A DNA stretch of 64,000 nt, taken from Alphaproteobacteria bacterium. Its GTDB lineage: Bacteria; Pseudomonadota; Alphaproteobacteria; Geminicoccales; Geminicoccaceae. The stretch is from the NCBI GenBank assembly GCA_027045875.1, contig JALUAG010000072.1:62001-126000 (forward strand), given 5' to 3'. The notes below the pieces were generated by a model. The model had not been told where the DNA came from, ran no database searches, and saw nothing but the letters and a program-made list of their open reading frames with translations. This document shows positions 2,331-51,804 of the stretch, piece by piece. Made by a program: the position numbers and the translations under genes. The first letter of the stretch is position 1. Each line of letters starts with the position of its first letter.

Positions 2331-3811
2331 CCTGCCACCTCCGCGAGCCCGTAAGGCAGGGCCGTGAAGGCCGCCGCCTCCTCGAGCGCCCGCCCCACCC
2401 GGAGCACCGTCGCCTCGTCCCACGCCCGGCCGATCACCTGCAGCCCCAGGGGAAGCCCCTCGGCCGAGAGCCCGGCGGGCACCGAGATCCCGGGCAGGCC
2501 GGCGAGGCTCGCCGGCACCGTGAAGACATCGTTCAGGTACATGGCCACCGGATCGTCGCTCTTCTCGCCGAGGCGGAAGGCGGCGGAAGGGGCGGTGGGG
2601 GTGAGGATCGCGTCCACCTCCCGGAAGGCGGCGGTGAAATCCTCGGCGATCCGCCGCCGCACCTTCTGCGCCTTCAGATAATATGCGTCGTAGTAGCCGG
2701 CGGAGAGGGCGTAGGTGCCGATGAGCACGCGCCGCTTGACCTCGGCGCCGAAGCCCCGGCCGCGGGTCTTCATGTAGGTCTCGGTGAGATCCGCCCCCTC
2801 GACCCGGAGCCCGAAGCGCATGCCGTCGTAGCGGGCGAGGTTGGAGGAGGCCTCGGCGGGGGCGATGATGTAGTAGGCGGGAAGGGCGTAGCGGGTGTGC
2901 GGCAGCGAGATCTCGCGGATCTCGGCGCCCGCCGCCCGCAGCCATTCCGCACCCTGCCGCCACAGCCGCTCGATCTCCTCCGGCATGCCCTCCACCCGGT
3001 ACTCGGCCGGGACGCCGATCCGCAGGCCGCGCACCTCGCCCGAAAGCCCGCCGCTCCAGTCCGGCACCTCGCGCGCGGCGCTGGTGCTGTCCTGCGGGTC
3101 GTAGCCCGCCATCGCCTGCAGCAGCAGCGCGCAGTCGGCGACGGTGCGGGTGAGGGGTCCGGCCTGGTCGAGGGAGCTCGCGAAGGCGACGATGCCGAAG
3201 CGCGAGCAGCGCCCGTAGGTGGGCTTCATGCCGACGACGCCGCAGAAGCTCGCCGGCTGGCGGATCGAGCCGCCGGTGTCGGTGCCGGTGGCGCCGAGGC
3301 AGAGGCGGGCGGCGACGGCGGCGGCCGACCCACCCGAGCTGCCGCCGGGCACCAGCGGCACCTCCTCCCCGGGCCGCGTCCAGGGGTTGCGCACCGGCCC
3401 GTAGTAGGAGGTGACGTTGGCCGAGCCCATGGCGAACTCGTCGAGATTGGCCTTGCCGAGGCAGACCGCGCCGGCCTCCCACAGCCGGCGGGTGACCGTC
3501 GATTCGTAGGGCGGCACGAACCCCTCCAGGATGTGCGAGCCGGCGGTGGTGAGGATCCCCTCGGTGCAGAACAGGTCCTTGATCGCCAGCGGCAGCCCCT
3601 CGAGGAGCCCGCTCTCGCCGCGCGCGAGGCGGGCGTCGGCGGCATCCGCCATCGCCAGCGCCCGCTCGGGAGTCTCGGTGATGTAGGCGTTGAGATCGCG
3701 CGCCGCCTCCATCGCCCGGAGATGGGCCTCGGTGAGTTCGCGGGCGGAGATCTCGCGGCGCCGCAGCGCCTCCCGGGCCGCCGTCAGGGTGAGAGCGGTG
3801 AGCTCGCTCAC
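2327..3811 (-). CDS. gatA: Asp-tRNA(Asn)/Glu-tRNA(Gln) amidotransferase subunit A
   Basis: GatA is the glutaminase subunit of GatCAB and releases ammonia from glutamine for transamidation. The 494-residue product shows the amidase-signature triad: Lys78 in AIKD, the cis-serine Ser158 in PGGSSGGS and the nucleophile Ser182 in DTGGSIR. The 24-residue Ser-Ser spacing is that of known GatA proteins. I chose the GTG at 3811 because it lies five bases after the gatC stop and gives the normal N-terminus. The frame is open further upstream, but that part reads through gatC in another frame. The order gatC-gatA-gatB on one transcript is typical. Confidence 0.96.
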
Positions 3812-40835: not shown

Positions 40836-42342
40836 GCAGAAACCGATACCCACCGACCCCGTTTCCGAGATCGCCGTTTTCGCCGCGAGCACGAGCGCGC
40901 CGGCGGCGCGGCGACGGAACTCGTGCGCGTTCAGCGAGAGGTGGACGCGGAGGTGTCGGCGGCGGCCGGGGCGGCCTCCTCTGCGGTCTCGCGATCGGGC
41001 GCGTCGGCTTCCACCTCCGGGCCGCGGCGCTGCTGCAGGAACCGGTAGAGGGTGCGCTCGCTGATACCGAGGACCCGGGCCACGGTGGCGCGGTGGCCGC
41101 CGTGGCGCCGCAGCAGCTCGGCGATGTAGGTATCGCGGATCTCGTCCAGCGTCGGCTCGTGGTCGAAAGCGAGCCGGAAGGCCCCGCCCGCTCGCTCCGC
41201 CGCCGCGGCAGACGTCCGAAGTGCGAGATGGCCGGGCTCGATGAGCGGGGATTCGCCCGAAAGAATGGCCGCCCGTTCGACGATGTTCCGGAGCTCGCGC
41301 ACGTTGCCCGGCCAGCCGTACCGCTGCAGCGCTTCGAGGGCGGCCGGGGTGAAGCGCTTGGGCACGTGCCGGCAGGCGCTGCGGCGCGAGAGAAAGAACT
41401 CCGCCAGCAGGGGCACGTCCTCCGGTCGCTCGCGCAGCGGGGGCAGGGTGAGGACGAGCCCTTCGAGCCGGTAGTAGAGGTCTTCCCGGAATCTTCCCTC
41501 GCGCACCATGCGTGCGAGCGTGCGGTTGGTGGCCGCGATGAAGCGGACGTCACAGCGGCAGTCGCGCGTGCTGCCGAGACGGCGGAAGGTGCGCGTCTCC
41601 AGCGTGCGCAGGAACTTGGCCTGCGCCGCCGGCGACAGATCGCCGATCTCGTCGAGGAACACGGTGCCTCCCTCCGCCGCCTCGATGAGACCCTCCTTGC
41701 GGCGGTCGGCGTCGGTGAACGCGCCCTTCTCGTGGCCGAACAACTCGCTCTCGAACAGGGTGTCCTGGAGTGTCGTGCAGTCCACGACCACGAACGGCCG
41801 CTCGCGCCGCGGGCTCGCCGCGTGGATGGCCCGTGCCGCGAGTTCCTTGCCGGTGCCGCTCTCACCGAGCAGGAGCACCGTGGCATCGGTCGGGGCCACG
41901 AGCCGGATCGCCCGCCGCACCCTGCGGATGGCCTCGCTGTTGCCCAGGAGCTCGGTGTGCACGGCGGAGGCCGCCTCGCGCCGCAGCAGCGCGTAGGTGC
42001 GCTGGAACTCCACCTTCTCGAGGGCCCGCTCGATGGCCAGCAGCAGCGCCTCCGGCGCCACCGGCTTGACCAGATAGTCGTCCGCGCCTCGTTTGATCGC
42101 GGTCACCGCCTGGTCGATGGAGCCGAAGGCCGTGAGCACGATCACCGGCGCGAGCTCCCGCAGGAGCGCGACCAGCTCGATGCCGTCGCGGTCGGGAAGG
42201 CGTACATCGAGGACGATCGCCGCGGGGTCCTTCTCCTCGGCGAGCACGAGCCCCTGTGCGCCGGTGGCCGCCGGCACCACCGGATAGCCGGCCGCTTCGA
42301 GCTGCATGGCCAGCAGCCGGCCGAGGGTGCGGTCGTCCTCGA

Positions 42343-44258
<1,916 letters not shown>

Positions 44259-44262
<4 letters not shown>

Positions 44263-44717
44263 CGCATGGAGGCGAGGCGCAGCAGGAAGCCGGCGGGCGG
44301 GATCGCCGCCGGATCGAGCCGCACCACCCGCCGGCCATCGGCGGCAACCTCGTCCCCGAACAGTACCACCGGGATCAGCACCGCATGCTCCCGGTGGCGG
44401 GCGAGGAACTGCGTGAACCAGCCCACCCGCTTCTCCCTGCGGCGGGTCGCGAGAAGGGCTTCGACGTTGTGGACCAGCGCCGGGCCACACCGCCCCGCCT
44501 CGGCGAGGAAGGCGTCGAGATCGGCGAGCCCGAGCCGCGTGGCCTGCCAGCCCAGAGGCGCCATGCGTTCGCGGCGGAAGTCCCGGAACGCGAGGCCGAA
44601 ATGCTCGGCGATCGCCTCCAGCAGCTCCGGACGGTACTCCGGCAGCCACACGATGGCCCCGCCCCGCCACGCCACGGCCTCGAGCACACGCTCGACCGGC
44701 GCCATCCAGTCGCTCAT
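44259..44717 (-). CDS. Unrecognised 152-residue protein in the molybdoenzyme cluster
   Basis: I do not recognise this protein. It has no signal peptide, membrane helix or Cys motif. It alternates helices and hydrophobic strands: GGAIVWLPEY, then a helical LLEAIAEHFGLAFRDFRRERM. CGPALVHNVEALLA comes next, followed by RREKRVGWFTQFLARHREHAVLIPVVLFGDEV. That layout resembles a small Rossmann-like or degenerate ATPase domain, but no P-loop is visible. It overlaps the sensor kinase start by four bases and follows the ferredoxin-like gene by 26. Its tight coupling to the kinase suggests a signalling or maturation role. Confidence 0.7.
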
Positions 44718-44743: not shown

Positions 44744-45769
44744 TTATGCCGTCGGGCCCGCCGCCGTCGAGGGCGGGAACGGTCCGCCGGCGTGCCCGGA
44801 GGTGCGACAGATGCGACAGCGGTCCATCACGGGCCGTACCACCGGCTCGCGAAAGGGCGCCCGGCAGTGCGTGCAGCGCCGCTCGCGGAGCGGAACCGGG
44901 GGCGGGGTCGGACGGTCGCGCAGGAGGGTGACGGCCCCGACCTCGCAGAGATCGACACACAGCCCGCAGCCGCTGCATCGCGCCGGGCGCACCTCGTAGG
45001 CCGTTTCGCCTTCTTCCCCGCGCACGAGACGGATGGCGTCGCGCGGGCAGCCGCGCGCACAGGCGTCGCAGCCCTGGCAGCGAAACGGATCGAGGACAGC
45101 AACAACCGGAAACGGTGCCGCCCCGTCGGCCGTGGGGAGTGGCACCGGCGCGCCATCGTCGGTGGCAGCATGATGGATACCGCGCGCGAACCGGCGCAGC
45201 AGCGCGCGCCGTCCGACGTCGAGGGACCGGGCGTGCCGGAGCGCACGGTACCAGTCCCCGAGAGGGAGGCGCTCGAGCGCCAGGGGGGCGACGCCGCGTG
45301 CCCGCAGGAGATGGGCCAACCGAACAAGAGCCGTTTCCAGCCCTTCACCGTCCATTGCCCGCGGGCAGTCCCGACAAGGGGGATCGGCCACCAGAAGACG
45401 GCGCGCACCGCGGGCCCGGAGCCGGGCGAGTTCCCGCAGGCCGAGGGCATGCAGACAGGGGATGCGACCGCGCAAGTCGCTCCCCGGGGTCGCCCCGCAG
45501 CGGGCCAAGGCGACGGTGTCGCCGTGCCAGTCGGCGAGCAGCGGCGTGCCGGGTACGTCGATGGCCCCTTCGGGACAGGCCGCCACGCACCGTCCGCAGC
45601 CGTCACAGCGGCCCGGGTCGATTCCGAGAAGGGCGTTCTCCAGCACCCAGGCGTGCCGGGGACAGACGTCGATGCAGGCGGTGCAGCTAGCGGCCGGCCC
45701 ACGGGCGTGTACGCAGCGCCCGCTGTCCAGCGTCGGCGGGGGGTCCCGAGGGTGCGCCGGACTTCGCAT
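44744..45769 (-). CDS. Multi-cluster 4Fe-4S ferredoxin-like protein with C-terminal zinc-ribbon-like Cys pairs
   Basis: The 341-residue soluble protein has two N-terminal cluster motifs, the first irregular (Cys19-x12-CTACIDVCP) and the second CDGCGRCVAACP. A central domain of about 140 residues with Cys pairs (CRDCP) follows. Two more clusters come next (CQGCDACARGCP and CSGCGLCVDLCE), then a final CTHC...CRIC pair like a zinc ribbon. No signal peptide or membrane helix is seen, so it is probably cytoplasmic. It follows the TorD-like chaperone gene. It may pass electrons or assist cofactor insertion for the molybdoenzyme. I cannot assign a named family. Confidence 0.8.
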   Translation of the reverse strand: MRSPAHPRDPPPTLDSGRCVHARGPAASCTACIDVCPRHAWVLENALLGIDPGRCDGCGRCVAACPEGAIDVPGTPLLADWHGDTVALARCGATPGSDLRGRIPCLHALGLRELARLRARGARRLLVADPPCRDCPRAMDGEGLETALVRLAHLLRARGVAPLALERLPLGDWYRALRHARSLDVGRRALLRRFARGIHHAATDDGAPVPLPTADGAAPFPVVAVLDPFRCQGCDACARGCPRDAIRLVRGEEGETAYEVRPARCSGCGLCVDLCEVGAVTLLRDRPTPPPVPLRERRCTHCRAPFREPVVRPVMDRCRICRTSGHAGGPFPPSTAAGPTA

Positions 45770-45781
45770 CGACAGGACCGC

Positions 45782-46540
45782 TCACCAGCCGGGACCAACG
45801 CCGGGCAGATAACGTTCGGCCGTGCAGCGGGGCAGCGGCCGGGCCCTCGGCTCGGCCGGCTGCCAGCGCGGTTCGCCGGTCGCATGCTCGAGCAGATCGC
45901 GCAGCTCTTCGAGATAGGCGGCGGTGAGACGGGCGAGGCCGACGAAATAGGGTGTGCGGCACCGCTTTCCCACCGCTGCCGCGAAGTCGCCGATCCAACG
46001 CAGAATGTGCCGGTCGGCGAAGCGCGCGGCGTCGCGGGTCGCCTCGGGGGTCGCCCGATCGAGCAGAAACGCGAGAAACTGCAGTTCGTGCACCAGATGA
46101 TCATCGGGACGGAGACGCCAGTTCTCCACCCGAAGACCATAACGCCGGTACCATCTCCGCACTTCGAACATCGGCTCCTGACGTTCGAGACGGTCGTCGT
46201 CGAGCCACGTCGATTCGCTCGTGCCGGCGCGGATGGCGTGGGTGAGATAGATGTCCGCGAAGTCGGCGGCCAGGCCGTCCAGTACCGAGGTGTCGATCCG
46301 GGCGGGAAGCATCCCGAGCCCCCGGTCCAGCTCGGCGAGCGCCGCCAGGCTTTCCGGACGGCGCAGATCGAGTGCGAGATGATCGCGGAAGGGAACCGAT
46401 CGCAGGAGCTCGAGCAGCCTTCGATCGGGTTCGCGGTCATGGAGACGGGCAAGGAGGTGCAGGTCCTCCGCCGCCGCCCGGATCAGCACGTCCGCCGGTC
46501 CGCCGTCGGTGGCGGCCTTCGCAGGCCCTTCCATGCTCAT
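45782..46540 (-). CDS. TorD/DmsD-family molybdoenzyme chaperone
   Basis: The 252-residue all-helical protein has the family pattern RRWYRRYGLRVENWRLRPDDHL followed by HELQFLAFLLDRA, which corresponds to the Y-x-x-x-G-L ... P-D-H-L-x-x-E-L motif of TorD/DmsD. These chaperones bind the Tat signal of a molybdoenzyme and hold it until its cofactor is inserted. It sits just downstream of the FeS subunit gene (ATGA overlap), so its client is most likely the DmsA-like enzyme here. Confidence 0.85.
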   Translation of the reverse strand: MSMEGPAKAATDGGPADVLIRAAAEDLHLLARLHDREPDRRLLELLRSVPFRDHLALDLRRPESLAALAELDRGLGMLPARIDTSVLDGLAADFADIYLTHAIRAGTSESTWLDDDRLERQEPMFEVRRWYRRYGLRVENWRLRPDDHLVHELQFLAFLLDRATPEATRDAARFADRHILRWIGDFAAAVGKRCRTPYFVGLARLTAAYLEELRDLLEHATGEPRWQPAEPRARPLPRCTAERYLPGVGPGW

Positions 46541-47202
46541 TCCACCACGCCCTTGCTGTGCGGTACGAAGACGATGGAGGGGTTGGTGAGCTCGGGATCC
46601 GCCATTCCTTTCACCTGGCGTACCACCCGATCATGGGGGCCTCGGGCCTTGGTCTCGTAGGTGCCTTCCCGCAGCTGGTCGATGGGACCGATATCGAGAA
46701 CGCGCATCATGCAGGCCATGACGCAGTAGGGCTTGCGGCCGGCGTCGATTTCGTCGACGCACATGTTGCACTTCTTGACCGTTTCCGTTTCGGGATCGTA
46801 CTGCGGCGCTCCGAACGGGCAGGCCGCCTCACAGCGGCGGCAGCCGATGCAGAGGGTGGAATCGATGTCGACGATGCCGTCCTTCCTGCGCTTGAAGATC
46901 GCCCCGGTCGGGCAGGCTGGCAGGCAGGCCGGTTCGGCGCAGTGATTGCACGACATGTTGACCTTGTAGGCGTACACCTCGGGAAAGGTCCCTCCCTCGA
47001 TGTACTGGACCCGGCGGAAACGGGGGCCCGGCGGTAGACCGTTCTTGTCCTTGCAGGCGATCTCGCAGGCGCGGCAGCCGATGCAGTCGACGTTGTTGTG
47101 AATGAAGCCGAGCTGCATTTCCGGCACCACCGGCTTGTAGCCCTCCCGCTTGACCCGCAGGATGGCCTCCTTGAGCTTCGCCTTGTCGCGTACCACGGCC
47201 AT
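46537..47202 (-). CDS. DmsB-like 4Fe-4S electron-transfer subunit
   Basis: The 221-residue protein has the four-cluster Cys arrangement of DmsB/PhsB/NrfC-type subunits: CIGCRACEIACKDKNG, CNHCAEPACLPACPTGAI, CIGCRRCEAACPFGAP and CNMCVDEIDAGRKPYCVMAC. It has no signal peptide, so it probably leaves through Tat together with the catalytic subunit. A strong GGAGGGAGTGAGG region precedes the ATG. It would take electrons to the molybdopterin subunit encoded just upstream. No DmsC or NrfD membrane anchor gene is in the cluster. Confidence 0.92.
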   Translation of the reverse strand: MAVVRDKAKLKEAILRVKREGYKPVVPEMQLGFIHNNVDCIGCRACEIACKDKNGLPPGPRFRRVQYIEGGTFPEVYAYKVNMSCNHCAEPACLPACPTGAIFKRRKDGIVDIDSTLCIGCRRCEAACPFGAPQYDPETETVKKCNMCVDEIDAGRKPYCVMACMMRVLDIGPIDQLREGTYETKARGPHDRVVRQVKGMADPELTNPSIVFVPHSKGVVE

Positions 47203-47225: not shown

Positions 47226-49763
47226 CTACAGGTCCCGGCGGAACAGATAGCTGCGGGCGGTGGCGAGCTTGTCCCACACCGGCCGGTGGTCGAGCTGTGT
47301 CTTGCGGATGTTGGCGAGCACCGTGTTGTAGGCGAAGGCGCCGGCGGGGCTCGGCTCGTCCAGGGTGAGGAAATCGGGATTGCCGGCCCGATCGACCCCG
47401 TTCTCGTCGAGATCCATCCAGGCTCCCTCGAACAGCACCAGCACGCCGGGCATGCAGCGTTCGGTGACGTAGGCGGGCACCACCACCCTGCCGCGGTCGT
47501 TCCACACCTCGACGATGTCGCCCGTCCTGATCCCGAGGCGCGCGGCATCGGAGGCGTTGATGGTCACCTCCTGCTCGTAGGTTTCCCGCAGCCAGGGAAT
47601 GTTGTTGAAAATGGAATGGGTGCGCCAGCGGGGGTGCGGGCTGATGAGGTGGAACGGATACTTGCGGGTTTTCTCCCGATCCCCGAGCCACTCGAAGGGC
47701 TCGATCCACTTGGGGATGGCGGGAATCGGGTAGCCGTACTGGGTTCGGGTCCAGTCCCGCGTCTGCGCCAGCACGGTCGAGAAGATCTCGATCTTGCCGG
47801 AGGGGGTGGGGAACGGGACGCCTTTTTCGATCTGGTCCCGGAACGCCACGTGGATGCGCGGCAGCTTGAACTTGTAGACCCCGCGGCGCTTGAACTCCTC
47901 CCACGAGATGTCGACACCCTGGTGGGGGACGACCCGGGTTTCCCACCAGCTCCGCAGATAGGCCTCGTCCACCGCATCGTTGAAACGGAAATAGTCGCGG
48001 CTCGCCCTGGGATTGTAGGCCGGGCCGAAACCGAGGCGCCAGGCCAGCTCGGTCAGGATCTGGAAGTCGGTCTTGGATTCGCCGAGCGGCTCGATGACCT
48101 TCGGCCGGTGGATGTAGTAGTGCCCCTTGTACCAGGGGAGTGCCACGTCGTGGCGTTCGAAATGGGTGGCGACCGGCAGCAGGTAGTCGGCCCACAGCCC
48201 CGACGGGGTGATCGTCGAATCCATGCAGACCACGAGATCGAGCTTCCGGACCGCCCGGATCTCCTTGTTGATGTTGGTGAGCTGGTTGAACCAGTCCGAG
48301 CCCTGCCAGACGATGCCGCGAATGTTCGGGATCAGCCCGTCGAACTGGTCCTGGCGGGGCCACAGACCGATTTCCTCGCGCCGGACGTTCGGATAGTTGA
48401 GGACACAGTGGGCCCAGCGGTCGGATTTGATGGAGGCGAACCAGATGTTCGCGAACTGGTCGTAGGGATAGGCGATCGCCTCGGCGTGCCAGGCCTTTCC
48501 CACGCCCTCGGCGCAGCCGCCGAGCTTGCCGATGTTGCCGGTCATCGCCTGCAGGGTGGCGGCCATCCGGTTGTACTGCTCACCGTAGGCGTTGCGTCCC
48601 GGTGCCCAGCTCGCCTTCAGGGCCGCGGGCTTGGTGGTGGCATAGAGATGGGCGAGCTTGCGGATGTCTTCGGCGGAAACACCGCAGATTCCGGAGGCCC
48701 ATTCGGGCGTCTTGGGCTGCCCGTCGTACTTGCCGAGAATGTAGTCCTTGAAATTCTCCTGCCCCTGTGCCCACGCCGGCATCGTCCCGGCGTCCATGCC
48801 CTGGCAGAAACGGTCGATGAACTCCTGATCCTGAAGATCGTTGACGAAGATGTAATGCGCCATGGCCGCGAGCATGGCGGCATCGGTGTTCGGCCGGATG
48901 GGGATCCACCAGGCGTCGTAGGCGGCCGCGCTGTCGGTGTATTGCGGATCCACGAGGACGAACCTGCATCCCCGCTGGCGGGCGAGGCGCATGTAGTAGA
49001 AGGTGTTGCCCCCGTGGAAGGTGTAGGCGGGGTTCCACCCCCACATGATGATCAGCTTGGAATGGGCGAAGGCATCGTCCTCGTTGCCGTCCTCGATGGT
49101 TCCGAAGGTGATCCGCGAGCTGAAGGTGGTTCCCTGATAGGAGGGAACCGACCAGGAGCTGGTGCGGCAGCCGAACATGCCGAGAAAGCGTCCGAGCAGT
49201 CCCGCGATCTGGTCGGATTTGTGCAGAACACCGAAGGATGCACCGGCGTAGGACTGGTCGAGAAGTGCCGTGGGTCCATAGGTGTTGCGCAGGTAGACCA
49301 TCTTCTCGGCGATCTGGGACAGGACCTCGTCCCAGGAGGCGCGCTTGAACCTTCCCTCACCCCGCTCCCCCACCCGGATCATCGGATAGAGCAGCCGTTC
49401 CGGCGAATAGAGCCGGGCGCGATAGGAGCGTCCCCGCAGGCAGGCCCGCAGCTGCGGCAGTTCCTCGGTGTCGGTGCCCCAGGGATTGCCGTCGTAGCCG
49501 CCATGGTCGGTGGAAAGACGAACGATCACGTCGCCCTTCTTGTGGGCCACCAGCATGTGCCGTGAACCGCAGTTGTGGGCACAGCTGGTGACCACGGTCT
49601 CCAGCTCGTCGTCGGTGGGATAGGGTTCGTAGGCGAACGCGGCAGCCGGCTTCGACCGCGCGACGGGGACGAGGCCCGCCATGCCCGCGGCCCCCGCCGT
49701 CTTGAGCAGCGTCCGGCGGCTGACGTTCAGTCCAGGCAACACGGGATCGGCGACTCTGGTCAT
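47226..49763 (-). CDS. Tat-exported DmsA-like molybdopterin oxidoreductase
   Basis: The 845-residue protein has a twin-arginine signal (SRRTLLKT, Arg16-Arg17) and a DMSO-reductase-family core. Similarity to DmsA is visible in ACLRGRSYRARLYSPERLLYPM-type segments, DPQYTDSAAAYDAWWIPIRPNTDAA, KTPEWASGICGV, FPTPSGKIEIFS and MPGVLVLFEGAW. The FS0-type motif reads Cys61-x3-Cys65-x3-His69-x38-Cys108, with His at the third ligand place. The Mo ligand is probably a Ser in the SVPSYQG region (inferred by alignment from memory). I preferred the ATG at 49763, preceded by GGGGAG, to one at 49778. The substrate is unknown: DMSO, methionine sulfoxide or another S- or N-oxide. Confidence 0.92.
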   Translation of the reverse strand: MTRVADPVLPGLNVSRRTLLKTAGAAGMAGLVPVARSKPAAAFAYEPYPTDDELETVVTSCAHNCGSRHMLVAHKKGDVIVRLSTDHGGYDGNPWGTDTEELPQLRACLRGRSYRARLYSPERLLYPMIRVGERGEGRFKRASWDEVLSQIAEKMVYLRNTYGPTALLDQSYAGASFGVLHKSDQIAGLLGRFLGMFGCRTSSWSVPSYQGTTFSSRITFGTIEDGNEDDAFAHSKLIIMWGWNPAYTFHGGNTFYYMRLARQRGCRFVLVDPQYTDSAAAYDAWWIPIRPNTDAAMLAAMAHYIFVNDLQDQEFIDRFCQGMDAGTMPAWAQGQENFKDYILGKYDGQPKTPEWASGICGVSAEDIRKLAHLYATTKPAALKASWAPGRNAYGEQYNRMAATLQAMTGNIGKLGGCAEGVGKAWHAEAIAYPYDQFANIWFASIKSDRWAHCVLNYPNVRREEIGLWPRQDQFDGLIPNIRGIVWQGSDWFNQLTNINKEIRAVRKLDLVVCMDSTITPSGLWADYLLPVATHFERHDVALPWYKGHYYIHRPKVIEPLGESKTDFQILTELAWRLGFGPAYNPRASRDYFRFNDAVDEAYLRSWWETRVVPHQGVDISWEEFKRRGVYKFKLPRIHVAFRDQIEKGVPFPTPSGKIEIFSTVLAQTRDWTRTQYGYPIPAIPKWIEPFEWLGDREKTRKYPFHLISPHPRWRTHSIFNNIPWLRETYEQEVTINASDAARLGIRTGDIVEVWNDRGRVVVPAYVTERCMPGVLVLFEGAWMDLDENGVDRAGNPDFLTLDEPSPAGAFAYNTVLANIRKTQLDHRPVWDKLATARSYLFRRDL

Positions 49764-49784
49764 GCTCGGGCTCCCCATCGGTGG

Positions 49785-50639
49785 TCACTCGCTGCCGATC
49801 CGCCACTGCGGATCGGATTCGGTGGGCCGGCCGACGGCCCATTCGGGCGTCTCCTCGCCCATGCCGGGCCAGGGATGACGTGGATAGGGGTAGGAAATGC
49901 GGTACCAGGCACGGCCGCCGTGACAACCGTAGCAGCCGTCGGAGGTGGCCTTGGCGGCTTCCTCGATGGCCGCCGCGTGCAGATAGCGGACCCGATGGCG
50001 GACGGTACGGATGGTCTCGTGGCAGACGAGGCAGCCATTGCGCGTCTCCTCGTCCTCGAAGTCCCGGCGAACGCGCCGCCAGTCGCCTTCCAGCCCCATG
50101 TTCTCGGAGGGAAAGCGACCGTGGCAGCGAAGACAGGTCTCGCTGGGATTGACCATCTTCCGCAGGGTGAAACGCGGCATGCCGTTCACGTCGGCCGGAA
50201 TGAACAGCCCCTCCTCGCGCGGGTCGTTGCCGCGATGGCAGAAATTGCAGCTCAGGTTCATGAGCTTGCGGGCCAGCGGTCCGACGAGATGGCGCTGGTG
50301 GAAGGTCATCTGGGGACCCTCGTACACATCGAGGGTCTGGTACCAGCCCAGGACGTCCTCCGACTTGAGGCCGGCGGGACTGGCAGGAAGCACGTCGCGC
50401 TCGAGGATCTCCCGATGGCAGACGAGGCACTCCTCGTCCGTGGCCCGGTCGATCTGCGGCGGAAAGTGGATCGGGTCCCACTGCGAACGGTAGTAGTCCT
50501 GACGCGCCGCGCGTGTCTTCACGGCTTGCGGATCGCCACCGCGAGACGAGTGTGGAGCGATCATCGCCACGCAGAATGCGGCCAATAACATCGCCCCCGC
50601 CCGTAATCCCGGGCCCGACTGGCGCCTCTTCCCGACCAT
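49785..50639 (-). CDS. Exported pentaheme cytochrome c
   Basis: The 284-residue protein has an N-terminal hydrophobic signal segment (about residues 12-32). Five CxxCH heme c motifs follow: 71-75 (CLVCH), 131-135 (CNFCH), 169-173 (CLRCH), 203-207 (CLVCH) and 236-240 (CYGCH). Many extra histidines can serve as distal ligands. It precedes the molybdoenzyme gene by only a few bases (plus the short leader) and follows the Met-rich protein. It probably gives electrons to the DmsAB-like pair in the periplasm, in place of a quinol-oxidising membrane anchor. I do not recognise a named subfamily. Confidence 0.88.
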   Translation of the reverse strand: MVGKRRQSGPGLRAGAMLLAAFCVAMIAPHSSRGGDPQAVKTRAARQDYYRSQWDPIHFPPQIDRATDEECLVCHREILERDVLPASPAGLKSEDVLGWYQTLDVYEGPQMTFHQRHLVGPLARKLMNLSCNFCHRGNDPREEGLFIPADVNGMPRFTLRKMVNPSETCLRCHGRFPSENMGLEGDWRRVRRDFEDEETRNGCLVCHETIRTVRHRVRYLHAAAIEEAAKATSDGCYGCHGGRAWYRISYPYPRHPWPGMGEETPEWAVGRPTESDPQWRIGSE

Positions 50640-50725: not shown

Positions 50726-51289
50726 TCACTCGGTCTTGCCGGCCATTCCCGACATACCCGACATGCCGGACATGCCCGACATGCCGCCCTGGCCGGCGAA
50801 GGTCCACTGGGTGCACACCCAGCCCGGGCCGCCCATGCCGGACATGCCGGACATGCCGCTCATGCCGGACATGCCGCTCATGCCGGACATGCCGCCCATA
50901 CCGGACATGCCGCCCATGCCGGACATGCCGCCCATACCGGACATGCCGCCCATACCGGACATGCCACCCATACCGGACATGCCGCCCATGCCGGACATGC
51001 CGCTCATGCCGGACATGCCGCCCATACCGGACATGCCGCCCATACCGGACATGCCGCCCATGCCGGCGATACCGGCGAAGGTCCACTGGGTGCAGACCCA
51101 GCCACCGCCCCCGCCGGCCATTCCCGACATGCCGGACATGCCGCTCATACCGGACATGCCGCCCATGCCGGACATGCCGCCCATGCCCGACATGCCACCC
51201 ATGCCGGACATGCCCTTCTGGCCGGCCTGCGCGGTCGCCGCCAGGCCAACCGCACATACCGACGCCAGGAGCAGGTTGCGAAGCTTCAT
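50726..51289 (-). CDS. Secreted Met/Gly/Ser repeat protein with two WVCTQWTFAG motifs
   Basis: The 187-residue protein has a clear signal peptide (MKLRNLLLASVCAVGL..., cleavage after AQA at residue 22). The mature part is almost all MSGM and GG units, in three blocks at about residues 27-57, 77-154 and 170-182. It has about 42 methionines in 165 residues. Between the blocks, the decapeptide WVCTQWTFAG occurs twice (64-73 and 157-166) and holds the only two mature cysteines. A textbook TAGGAGGAACC site precedes the ATG, suggesting high expression. I know no named family for it. Possible roles are a sacrificial methionine oxidant sink, a metal binder or a scaffold. It lies in the cluster just upstream of the cytochrome and molybdoenzyme genes. 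Confidence 0.85.
   Translation of the reverse strand: MKLRNLLLASVCAVGLAATAQAGQKGMSGMGGMSGMGGMSGMGGMSGMSGMSGMSGMAGGGGGWVCTQWTFAGIAGMGGMSGMGGMSGMGGMSGMSGMSGMGGMSGMGGMSGMGGMSGMGGMSGMGGMSGMGGMSGMSGMSGMSGMSGMSGMGGPGWVCTQWTFAGQGGMSGMSGMSGMSGMAGKTE
50744..51211. repeat. In-frame 9- and 18-base tandem repeats coding for MSG/MSGMGG
   Basis: The DNA repeats an 18-base unit coding Met-Ser-Gly-Met-Gly-Gly and a 9-base unit coding Met-Ser-Gly, interrupted by the two Trp/Cys decapeptide segments (51071-51100 and 50792-50821). Copies differ by GGC/GGT choices. Such an array can change in length by slippage or recombination. Confidence 0.9.
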
Positions 51290-51417: not shown

Positions 51418-51753
51418 TCACTCGGGCAGCCTCCGCGGCCGCAGATCGTCGCGGTCGTGCCAGCCGCGCAGATCGTACCGGCCCATCATTCCGGGGTGAT
51501 CGAAGGGGAAATGCCAGGCACCCTGATCGTCGAGGAATCCGAGGCTTCGAGGGTACGGCGGTGCGATGCCGTGAAGAGCCCGCCGGTACCAGGCCGGATC
51601 CTTGTCGAACGCGGTGACCCGCGGTGCTCCCGGTGGGCGTCGGTCCGGCGTCGCGCCACCGATCACCGCGGGTGCCGCGACCACCGGTGCCGCGAGCAGC
51701 AGAACCGTCGAGAGTGCTCCGGCGCGGATCCTCCAGCTCATCGCCGCCCTCAT
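51418..51753 (-). CDS. Small secreted protein, first gene of the molybdoenzyme cluster
   Basis: The 111-residue product has an N-terminal signal (SWRIRAGALSTVLLLAAPVVAA, about residues 6-27). The mature part is about 85 residues, rich in Pro, Arg, His and aromatic residues, with AWYRRALHGIAPPYP and WHFPFDHPGMMGRYDLRGWHDRDDL. There are no cysteines. I do not recognise the family. The His/Asp/Met-rich C-terminus could bind a metal. The ATG at 51753 may be replaced by one four codons later with a better GAGGGCG site. It begins about 25 bases after the predicted sigma54 start point. Confidence 0.65.
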   Translation of the reverse strand: MRAAMSWRIRAGALSTVLLLAAPVVAAPAVIGGATPDRRPPGAPRVTAFDKDPAWYRRALHGIAPPYPRSLGFLDDQGAWHFPFDHPGMMGRYDLRGWHDRDDLRPRRLPE

Positions 51754-51788: not shown

Positions 51789-51804
51789 TACAAGTCCCGT
51801 GCCA
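51789..51804 (-). promoter_or_regulatory. Sigma54 (-24/-12) promoter of the molybdoenzyme cluster
   Basis: The minus strand reads TTGGCACGGGACTTGTA. The -24 element TGGCACG is perfect, the 10-base GG-to-GT spacing is correct, and only one base of the -12 element differs (TTGT for TTGC). The predicted start is near 51778, leaving a 25-base leader. A sigma54 activator is encoded in the same cluster. Confidence 0.75.

Follow-up and report, generated by a model that had tools for sequence, protein, structure and literature searches.

A secreted methionine-glycine repeat protein encoded with a DmsA-like molybdoenzyme: a candidate periplasmic methionine sulfoxide cycle

In the 64-kb window (the whole stretch of DNA that was analysed), a gene for a secreted protein built of M-x-G repeats, here called the array, is found in one operon with a DmsA-like molybdoenzyme, a multihaem cytochrome c and a sigma-54-type set of regulators. 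This gene set is conserved among proteobacteria, the Met and Gly of the repeat are under constraint, and the operon is preceded by a -24/-12 promoter. The best explanation, which we consider a little likelier true than false, would be a self-contained periplasmic cycle of methionine and methionine sulfoxide (Met/MetO), with the enzyme re-reducing the array. This is favoured because a Met polymer is tightly paired with a sulfoxide-type reductase and because its Met residues are constrained.

The array gene and its operon

The operon spans the genes from a small secreted protein (51741) to a response regulator (40931), all on the minus strand, an extent that the first-pass annotation had not recognised. 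The features are as follows.

51789..51804, minus strand: sigma-54-type -24/-12 promoter, TGGCACGGGACTTGTA, upstream of the small gene
51418..51741, minus strand: small secreted protein, ~107 aa, start codon inferred (a homologue precedes the array in 40 sequences)
50726..51289, minus strand: secreted M-x-G repeat ("methionine ladder") protein, 187 aa (ORF call, composition, repeat constraint)
51083..51100, minus strand: codons of the first WVCTQW insert, inside the array gene (pattern match)
50804..50821, minus strand: codons of the second WVCTQW insert, inside the array gene (pattern match)
49785..50639, minus strand: secreted multihaem cytochrome c with five CxxCH (Pfam Cytochrome_C7; homologue in nearly every locus)
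47226..49778, minus strand: DmsA-like molybdoenzyme with Tat signal, Ser213, Tyr177 and FS0 Cys66/Cys70/His74/Cys113 (profile searches, alignments)
46537..47202, minus strand: DmsB-like 4x[4Fe-4S] subunit (TIGR02951, 196.7 bits, just under the 214.1 cut-off; 71-94% identical across loci)
45782..46540, minus strand: TorD/DmsD-like maturation chaperone (Pfam Nitrate_red_del)
44744..45769, minus strand: Fe-S (ferredoxin-like) protein (Pfam Fer4 families; homologue in most loci)
44259..44717, minus strand: conserved ORF, in a subset of loci (tblastn, 11 sequences)
42343..44262, minus strand: sensor histidine kinase, start codon inferred, with c-haem motif(s) CRECH/CSGCH on the periplasmic side (Pfam HAMP/HisKA/PAS/HATPase)
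40931..42379, minus strand: NtrC-type sigma-54 activator, the response regulator (sequence and homologues; the Rhodobacter xanthinilyticus copy is annotated as a sigma-54 dependent regulator)

The array protein carries a Sec-type signal peptide, MKLRNLLLASVCAVGLAATAQA, followed by the M-x-G repeat body, which is interrupted twice by WVCTQWTFAG. The first-pass annotation had described about a quarter of the mature residues as Met, nearly all in repeats, and this is borne out: the ORF is exactly 50726-51289, and 42 of the 161 residues counted from the array start are Met (26%). The same 161 residues include one acidic and one basic residue and no His. The gene had also been placed directly upstream of a cytochrome-linked enzyme. 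It is indeed upstream and on the same strand, but the gene immediately next to it is that of the cytochrome, and the enzyme follows after.

Searches of Pfam, NCBIfam and PDB with the array gave collagen-like matches only, because the repeat has a three-residue period; the NCBIfam model for the MxKDx repeat was not among the NCBIfam matches. Like collagen-like proteins, the array has Gly at every third residue, but its repeats are without proline, and it scores 20.4 bits against a Pfam cut-off of 27.2 and also misses the NCBIfam cut-off. AlphaFold gives the array a pLDDT of 43 and no usable structure. A literature search for the M-x-G repeat found no published description.

The small secreted protein, which has no family match in Pfam or NCBIfam, is recognised by the motif RP..AP...WY..AL.G...PYP.SL.FL..QG.W.TPF..PGM.G.YD.R.WH. 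It nearly always heads the operon where the locus extends far enough.

Conservation, pairing and constraint

The DmsA-like protein was used to scan ~85,000 species genomes; this yielded 325 candidate loci, of which the best 80 were analysed. These 80 are ~76-83% identical to the query and belong to Alpha-, Beta- and Gammaproteobacteria, with a few records otherwise named; many of the carriers are sulfur oxidisers, and other marine and soil bacteria are also found. An M-x-G array ORF precedes the enzyme in 72 of these best 80 of 325 loci, with the cytochrome nearly always between. The system is not confined to one genome. The same count takes the ORF beyond chance, as do the Met and Gly residues, which are held while synonymous sites and the x position vary.

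In seven of the eight array-less loci the sequence runs out at a contig end, and a pattern search of the eight genomes found arrays elsewhere or on another contig in seven. The untruncated locus, L078, was considered as an enzyme without an array and rejected; it is a solitary second copy of the enzyme, and contig ends of the same genome carry the small gene, two array genes and the genes for cytochrome, DmsA and DmsB. Contigs break inside the array in 33 of the 80 loci (e.g. L009, L010, L011, L014). A copy of the operon is carried by the conjugative plasmid pEJ01 of R. xanthinilyticus, where the small and array genes are both annotated "hypothetical protein". Array genes are therefore easily missed in annotation and lost from draft assemblies.

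The recurring order is small gene, array, cytochrome, DmsA, DmsB, TorD, (Fe-S protein), (ORF), kinase and regulator. In several gammaproteobacteria the kinase and regulator genes lie upstream of the others in reverse orientation; in L017 they are downstream, likewise reversed.

The reciprocal test was an M-x-G pattern search of samples of 385 genomes from the class and 398 from the phylum. Real arrays were found in G000, G218, G498, G563, G511 and G213, each with an enzyme of 77-83% identity within ~1 to 5 kb, and the tested genomes without arrays were also without the enzyme. Most pattern matches were rejected as relatives, since, judged from the matched sequence, they look like GroEL-type GGM tails; a few others are short, e.g. 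MTGM in G191 and G288. A search of the order of G511 yielded no additional array genomes. Other DmsA proteins in the sampled genomes are ~35% identical to the array-linked enzyme, and in a search of plasmids the DmsA identity falls from 79.6% to 35.6% at the next match. Thus, the enzyme clade looks sharply bounded.

Among 74 array ORFs, Met is kept at 3002 of 3043 in-phase positions (98.7%) and Gly at 3002 of 3005 (99.9%), counted in a frame that needs intact neighbours, so that double changes escape it. The Met replacements are almost all Gln, in QKG-type spacers of a few members, with Leu, Ile or Val at just 2 of the 3043 positions. The x position drifts (Ser 56%, Gly 34%, then Asn, Ala, Asp, Lys, Tyr and others), and all four Gly codons and all six Ser codons are in use. 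His makes up 0.13% of array residues, and acidic residues are nearly absent. From these replacement counts, purifying selection acts on the Met and Gly of the array.

The inserts differ by group: WVCTQW(T/S) is mainly alphaproteobacterial, YFKITPQGQIFFYPASG is gammaproteobacterial, and W(T/K)PP is found near many C-termini. Array length ranges from 27 mature residues (G017) to more than 300. In G213 (L181:7151-11615) there are two different M-x-G genes in tandem, with an extra ORF ahead of the cytochrome gene; x there is frequently Tyr, Pro, Arg, Trp or Gln, yet M and G mostly stay. Tandem array genes are also found behind the small gene at L179:6704-8349 (G776:C89), with M-Y-P-M-S-G variants and a contig end inside the second. 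In G017 (L002/L008, G017:C38), of the same genus, dmsA, most of dmsB and the TorD, Fe-S and kinase genes are gone. Its array is reduced to a 49-residue protein and its cytochrome runs into the DmsB fragment, although misassembly is possible.

The only other setting in which an array was seen is a PQQ methanol-dehydrogenase-like protein of G563 (L198:4580-6817, G563:C18), which has a long C-terminal MSGM tail. The enzyme is not adjacent to it, and the same genome has an array-DmsA operon. Arrays can therefore occur without the enzyme alongside.

The regularity of the repeat suggests a rather unlikely alternative, in which bundles with Gly at every third residue (polyproline-II/polyglycine-II or collagen-like) form a scaffold that holds cytochrome and reductase to the cell surface or binds a hydrophobic substrate, Met being a flexible hydrophobic surface and not a redox group. 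So strict a Gly period exceeds the needs of a floppy sink and is suggestive of a structural role, as are the near-complete retention of Gly and the collagen chains reached through the three-residue period. The C-terminal (GGM)n tails of GroEL, which share the M-G-G tripeptide repeat and a polyproline-II tendency, form polyproline-II helices that expose Met on their surface (PMC12571646), although they are short, cytosolic and borne by a chaperonin, whereas the arrays are secreted. The aromatic inserts spaced along the arrays and the tail on the methanol-dehydrogenase-like enzyme also fit a scaffold. However, Leu, Ile and Val are hydrophobic and one base away from Met, and a merely hydrophobic surface does not account for their rarity among the replacements; AlphaFold gives the array no structure; and the arrays accompany a sulfoxide-type reductase.

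Enzyme, promoter and expression

The best profile for the enzyme is dmsA_ynfE (TIGR02166, 594.6 bits, below the 777.7 cut-off), and by profile it is nearest to the DmsA/YnfE group and S/N-oxide reductases. It has features of the DMSO reductase family: molybdopterin domains, a Ser Mo ligand, a Tat signal and FS0 ligands with one Cys-to-His change. In DorA the Mo ligand is Ser147. Alignment with DorA puts Ser213 at the Mo ligand position, and Ser181, a candidate for this role, was rejected on that basis. Tyr177 matches DorA Tyr114, and the position of Trp116 is Gly179 in 86 of 86 enzyme sequences; E. coli DmsA likewise lacks the DorA Trp. The FS0 ligands are Cys66, Cys70, His74 and Cys113, also in 86 of 86. 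The AlphaFold mean score of the enzyme is 54.8, from a shallow alignment.

The window enzyme thus shares its family, the Ser Mo ligand and the Tyr114 equivalent with DorA, MtsZ and DmsA/YnfE. It is ~35% identical to these S/N-oxide reductases, and it differs from DorA in having an Fe-S subunit B and FS0, and from E. coli DmsA and YnfE in that they have Cys as the third FS0 ligand where the window clade has His. Its operon has no DmsC membrane anchor gene; the multihaem cytochrome c is probably the electron carrier to the reductase instead. DorA of R. sphaeroides reduces protein-bound MetO, and does so better in the context GAGM(O)Q than in PGYM(O)E (PMC7402097). By analogy, the Gly-flanked Met of the array may be a favourable context for DorA-like reduction.

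Upstream of the operon, the element at 51804..51789 alone matches TGGCAY-N5-TTGYW when both strands of the window are considered. It scores 13 of 15. Among 40 loci scored, 25 (two from one genome) have an element of 14 or 15 of 15 ahead of the small gene, where shuffling gives a mean of 10.8. The promoter is absent from rhodobacteral loci. The sigma-54 promoter of G017 is perfect despite its decayed operon. The periplasmic CxxCH of the kinase is kept in 47 of 51 matches, and the other four are weak and probably unrelated. With a -24/-12 promoter and a gene for an NtrC-type activator, the operon has the marks of NtrC/sigma-54 control.

Published transcripts may bear on this operon. In one account (PMC12172469), Thiodiazotropha transcripts of genes of the operon's downstream type peak in the upwelling season, a time of lower oxygen, at ~three- to five-fold over the other season. 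Another lists a gene similar to DMSO reductases among the most expressed in the Loripes symbiont, calls this intriguing, and suggests DMSO respiration for the enzyme (PMC6872982). In both Ca. T. endoloripes and Ca. T. endolucinida the DmsA of this operon is the sole homologue at E <= 1e-40, so that, by exclusion and locus tags aside, the published lucinid-symbiont transcripts are probably from this system.

The proposal of the lucinid-symbiont authors corresponds to a doubtful second alternative, in which the enzyme simply respires DMSO or some other S-/N-oxide or an oxyanion, and the array is an accessory that, for example, protects the enzyme locally or binds substrate or product. The best profile of the enzyme and the cytochrome route without a DmsC anchor are in keeping with it. 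Respiration alone, however, leaves both the near-universal pairing of enzyme and array and the purifying selection on Met unexplained.

A candidate Met/MetO cycle

In the favoured Met/MetO cycle, the operon would secrete a low-complexity M-x-G protein that offers dozens of solvent-exposed Met residues to oxidants. Its chains are probably extended and polyproline-II-like, with three residues per turn, which would align the Met side chains. A co-secreted DmsAB-type molybdoenzyme would reduce the Met sulfoxides of the array back to Met, with electrons reaching it via the multihaem cytochrome c. The haem-c sensor kinase and NtrC-type activator would turn on the operon through its sigma-54 promoter, probably at a redox or low-oxygen signal. 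Here we infer the oxidation of the array, the action of the enzyme upon it, the electron route and the signal. Loss of the enzyme together with shrinkage of the array in G017 counts in favour of the cycle. Against it counts MsrP, the known periplasmic MetO reductase, which is present in seven of the eight array-bearing genomes examined; that of G000 is on another contig (G000:C46), not beside the array.

MrpX-YedY1/YedZ of Azospira suillum and BcrXQP of Brucella are similar in that a secreted Met-rich repeat protein and a MetO-reducing molybdoenzyme are encoded together with their own regulator. Both are hypochlorite-scavenging systems. The MrpX repeat is MXKDX (PMC8315932), whereas here it is M-x-G, with Lys and Asp rare; their enzyme belongs to the YedY/MsrP type and has a haem partner in the membrane, against a DmsAB type with a multihaem cytochrome c; and they are controlled by an ECF sigma/anti-sigma pair, against sigma-54, NtrC and a haem-c kinase. 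The M-x-G/DmsA set would work like MrpX-YedY and yet is not a member, as repeat unit, enzyme family and regulation all differ.

The first-pass annotation had proposed that a different molybdoenzyme takes the part of YedY1. This stands as the leading reading of the sequences, with a very strong gene link and suitable active-site features. Its further suggestion, that the array is an oxidant sink, is less secure in the sense of stress defence: control is by sigma-54 and haem c and not ECF, MsrP is present anyway, and the expression peak in the low-oxygen season is at least as compatible with a respiratory or micro-oxic role as with oxidant defence. A more specific form, which we regard as unlikely, is that M-x-G is an ordered, rechargeable redox buffer, in which MetO stores oxidising equivalents and a dedicated respiratory-type reductase discharges them at low oxygen. 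If so, the protein would be a reusable electron acceptor, and the abundant "DMSO reductase" of lucinid symbionts would be accounted for.

Soft-metal Cu(I)/Ag(I) binding through MxxM motifs, also raised in the first-pass annotation, is the least likely of the alternatives: the M-x-x-M spacing all along the array resembles the Met-rich copper sites of Ctr1, PcoC and CueO, but His and acidic residues are scarce, a crude motif scan of ~0.95 Mb of flanks found no CPC-type ATPases, multicopper oxidases or CopZ/HMA sites, and the regulator is of the sigma-54/haem-c kind and not a metal sensor.

For the highly conserved DmsA-like clade, annotated only as "DMSO reductase" or "molybdopterin-dependent oxidoreductase", the array is a likely protein partner and brings a testable function. 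If the Met/MetO cycle is correct, methionine cycling in the envelope would have arisen at least twice, from unrelated parts.

Extra genes for secreted proteins are found between dmsA and dmsB in two gammaproteobacterial operons (L069:5314-7560 and L065:4722-7417); those of L069 are four near-identical tandem genes, each for a protein of ~188 residues.
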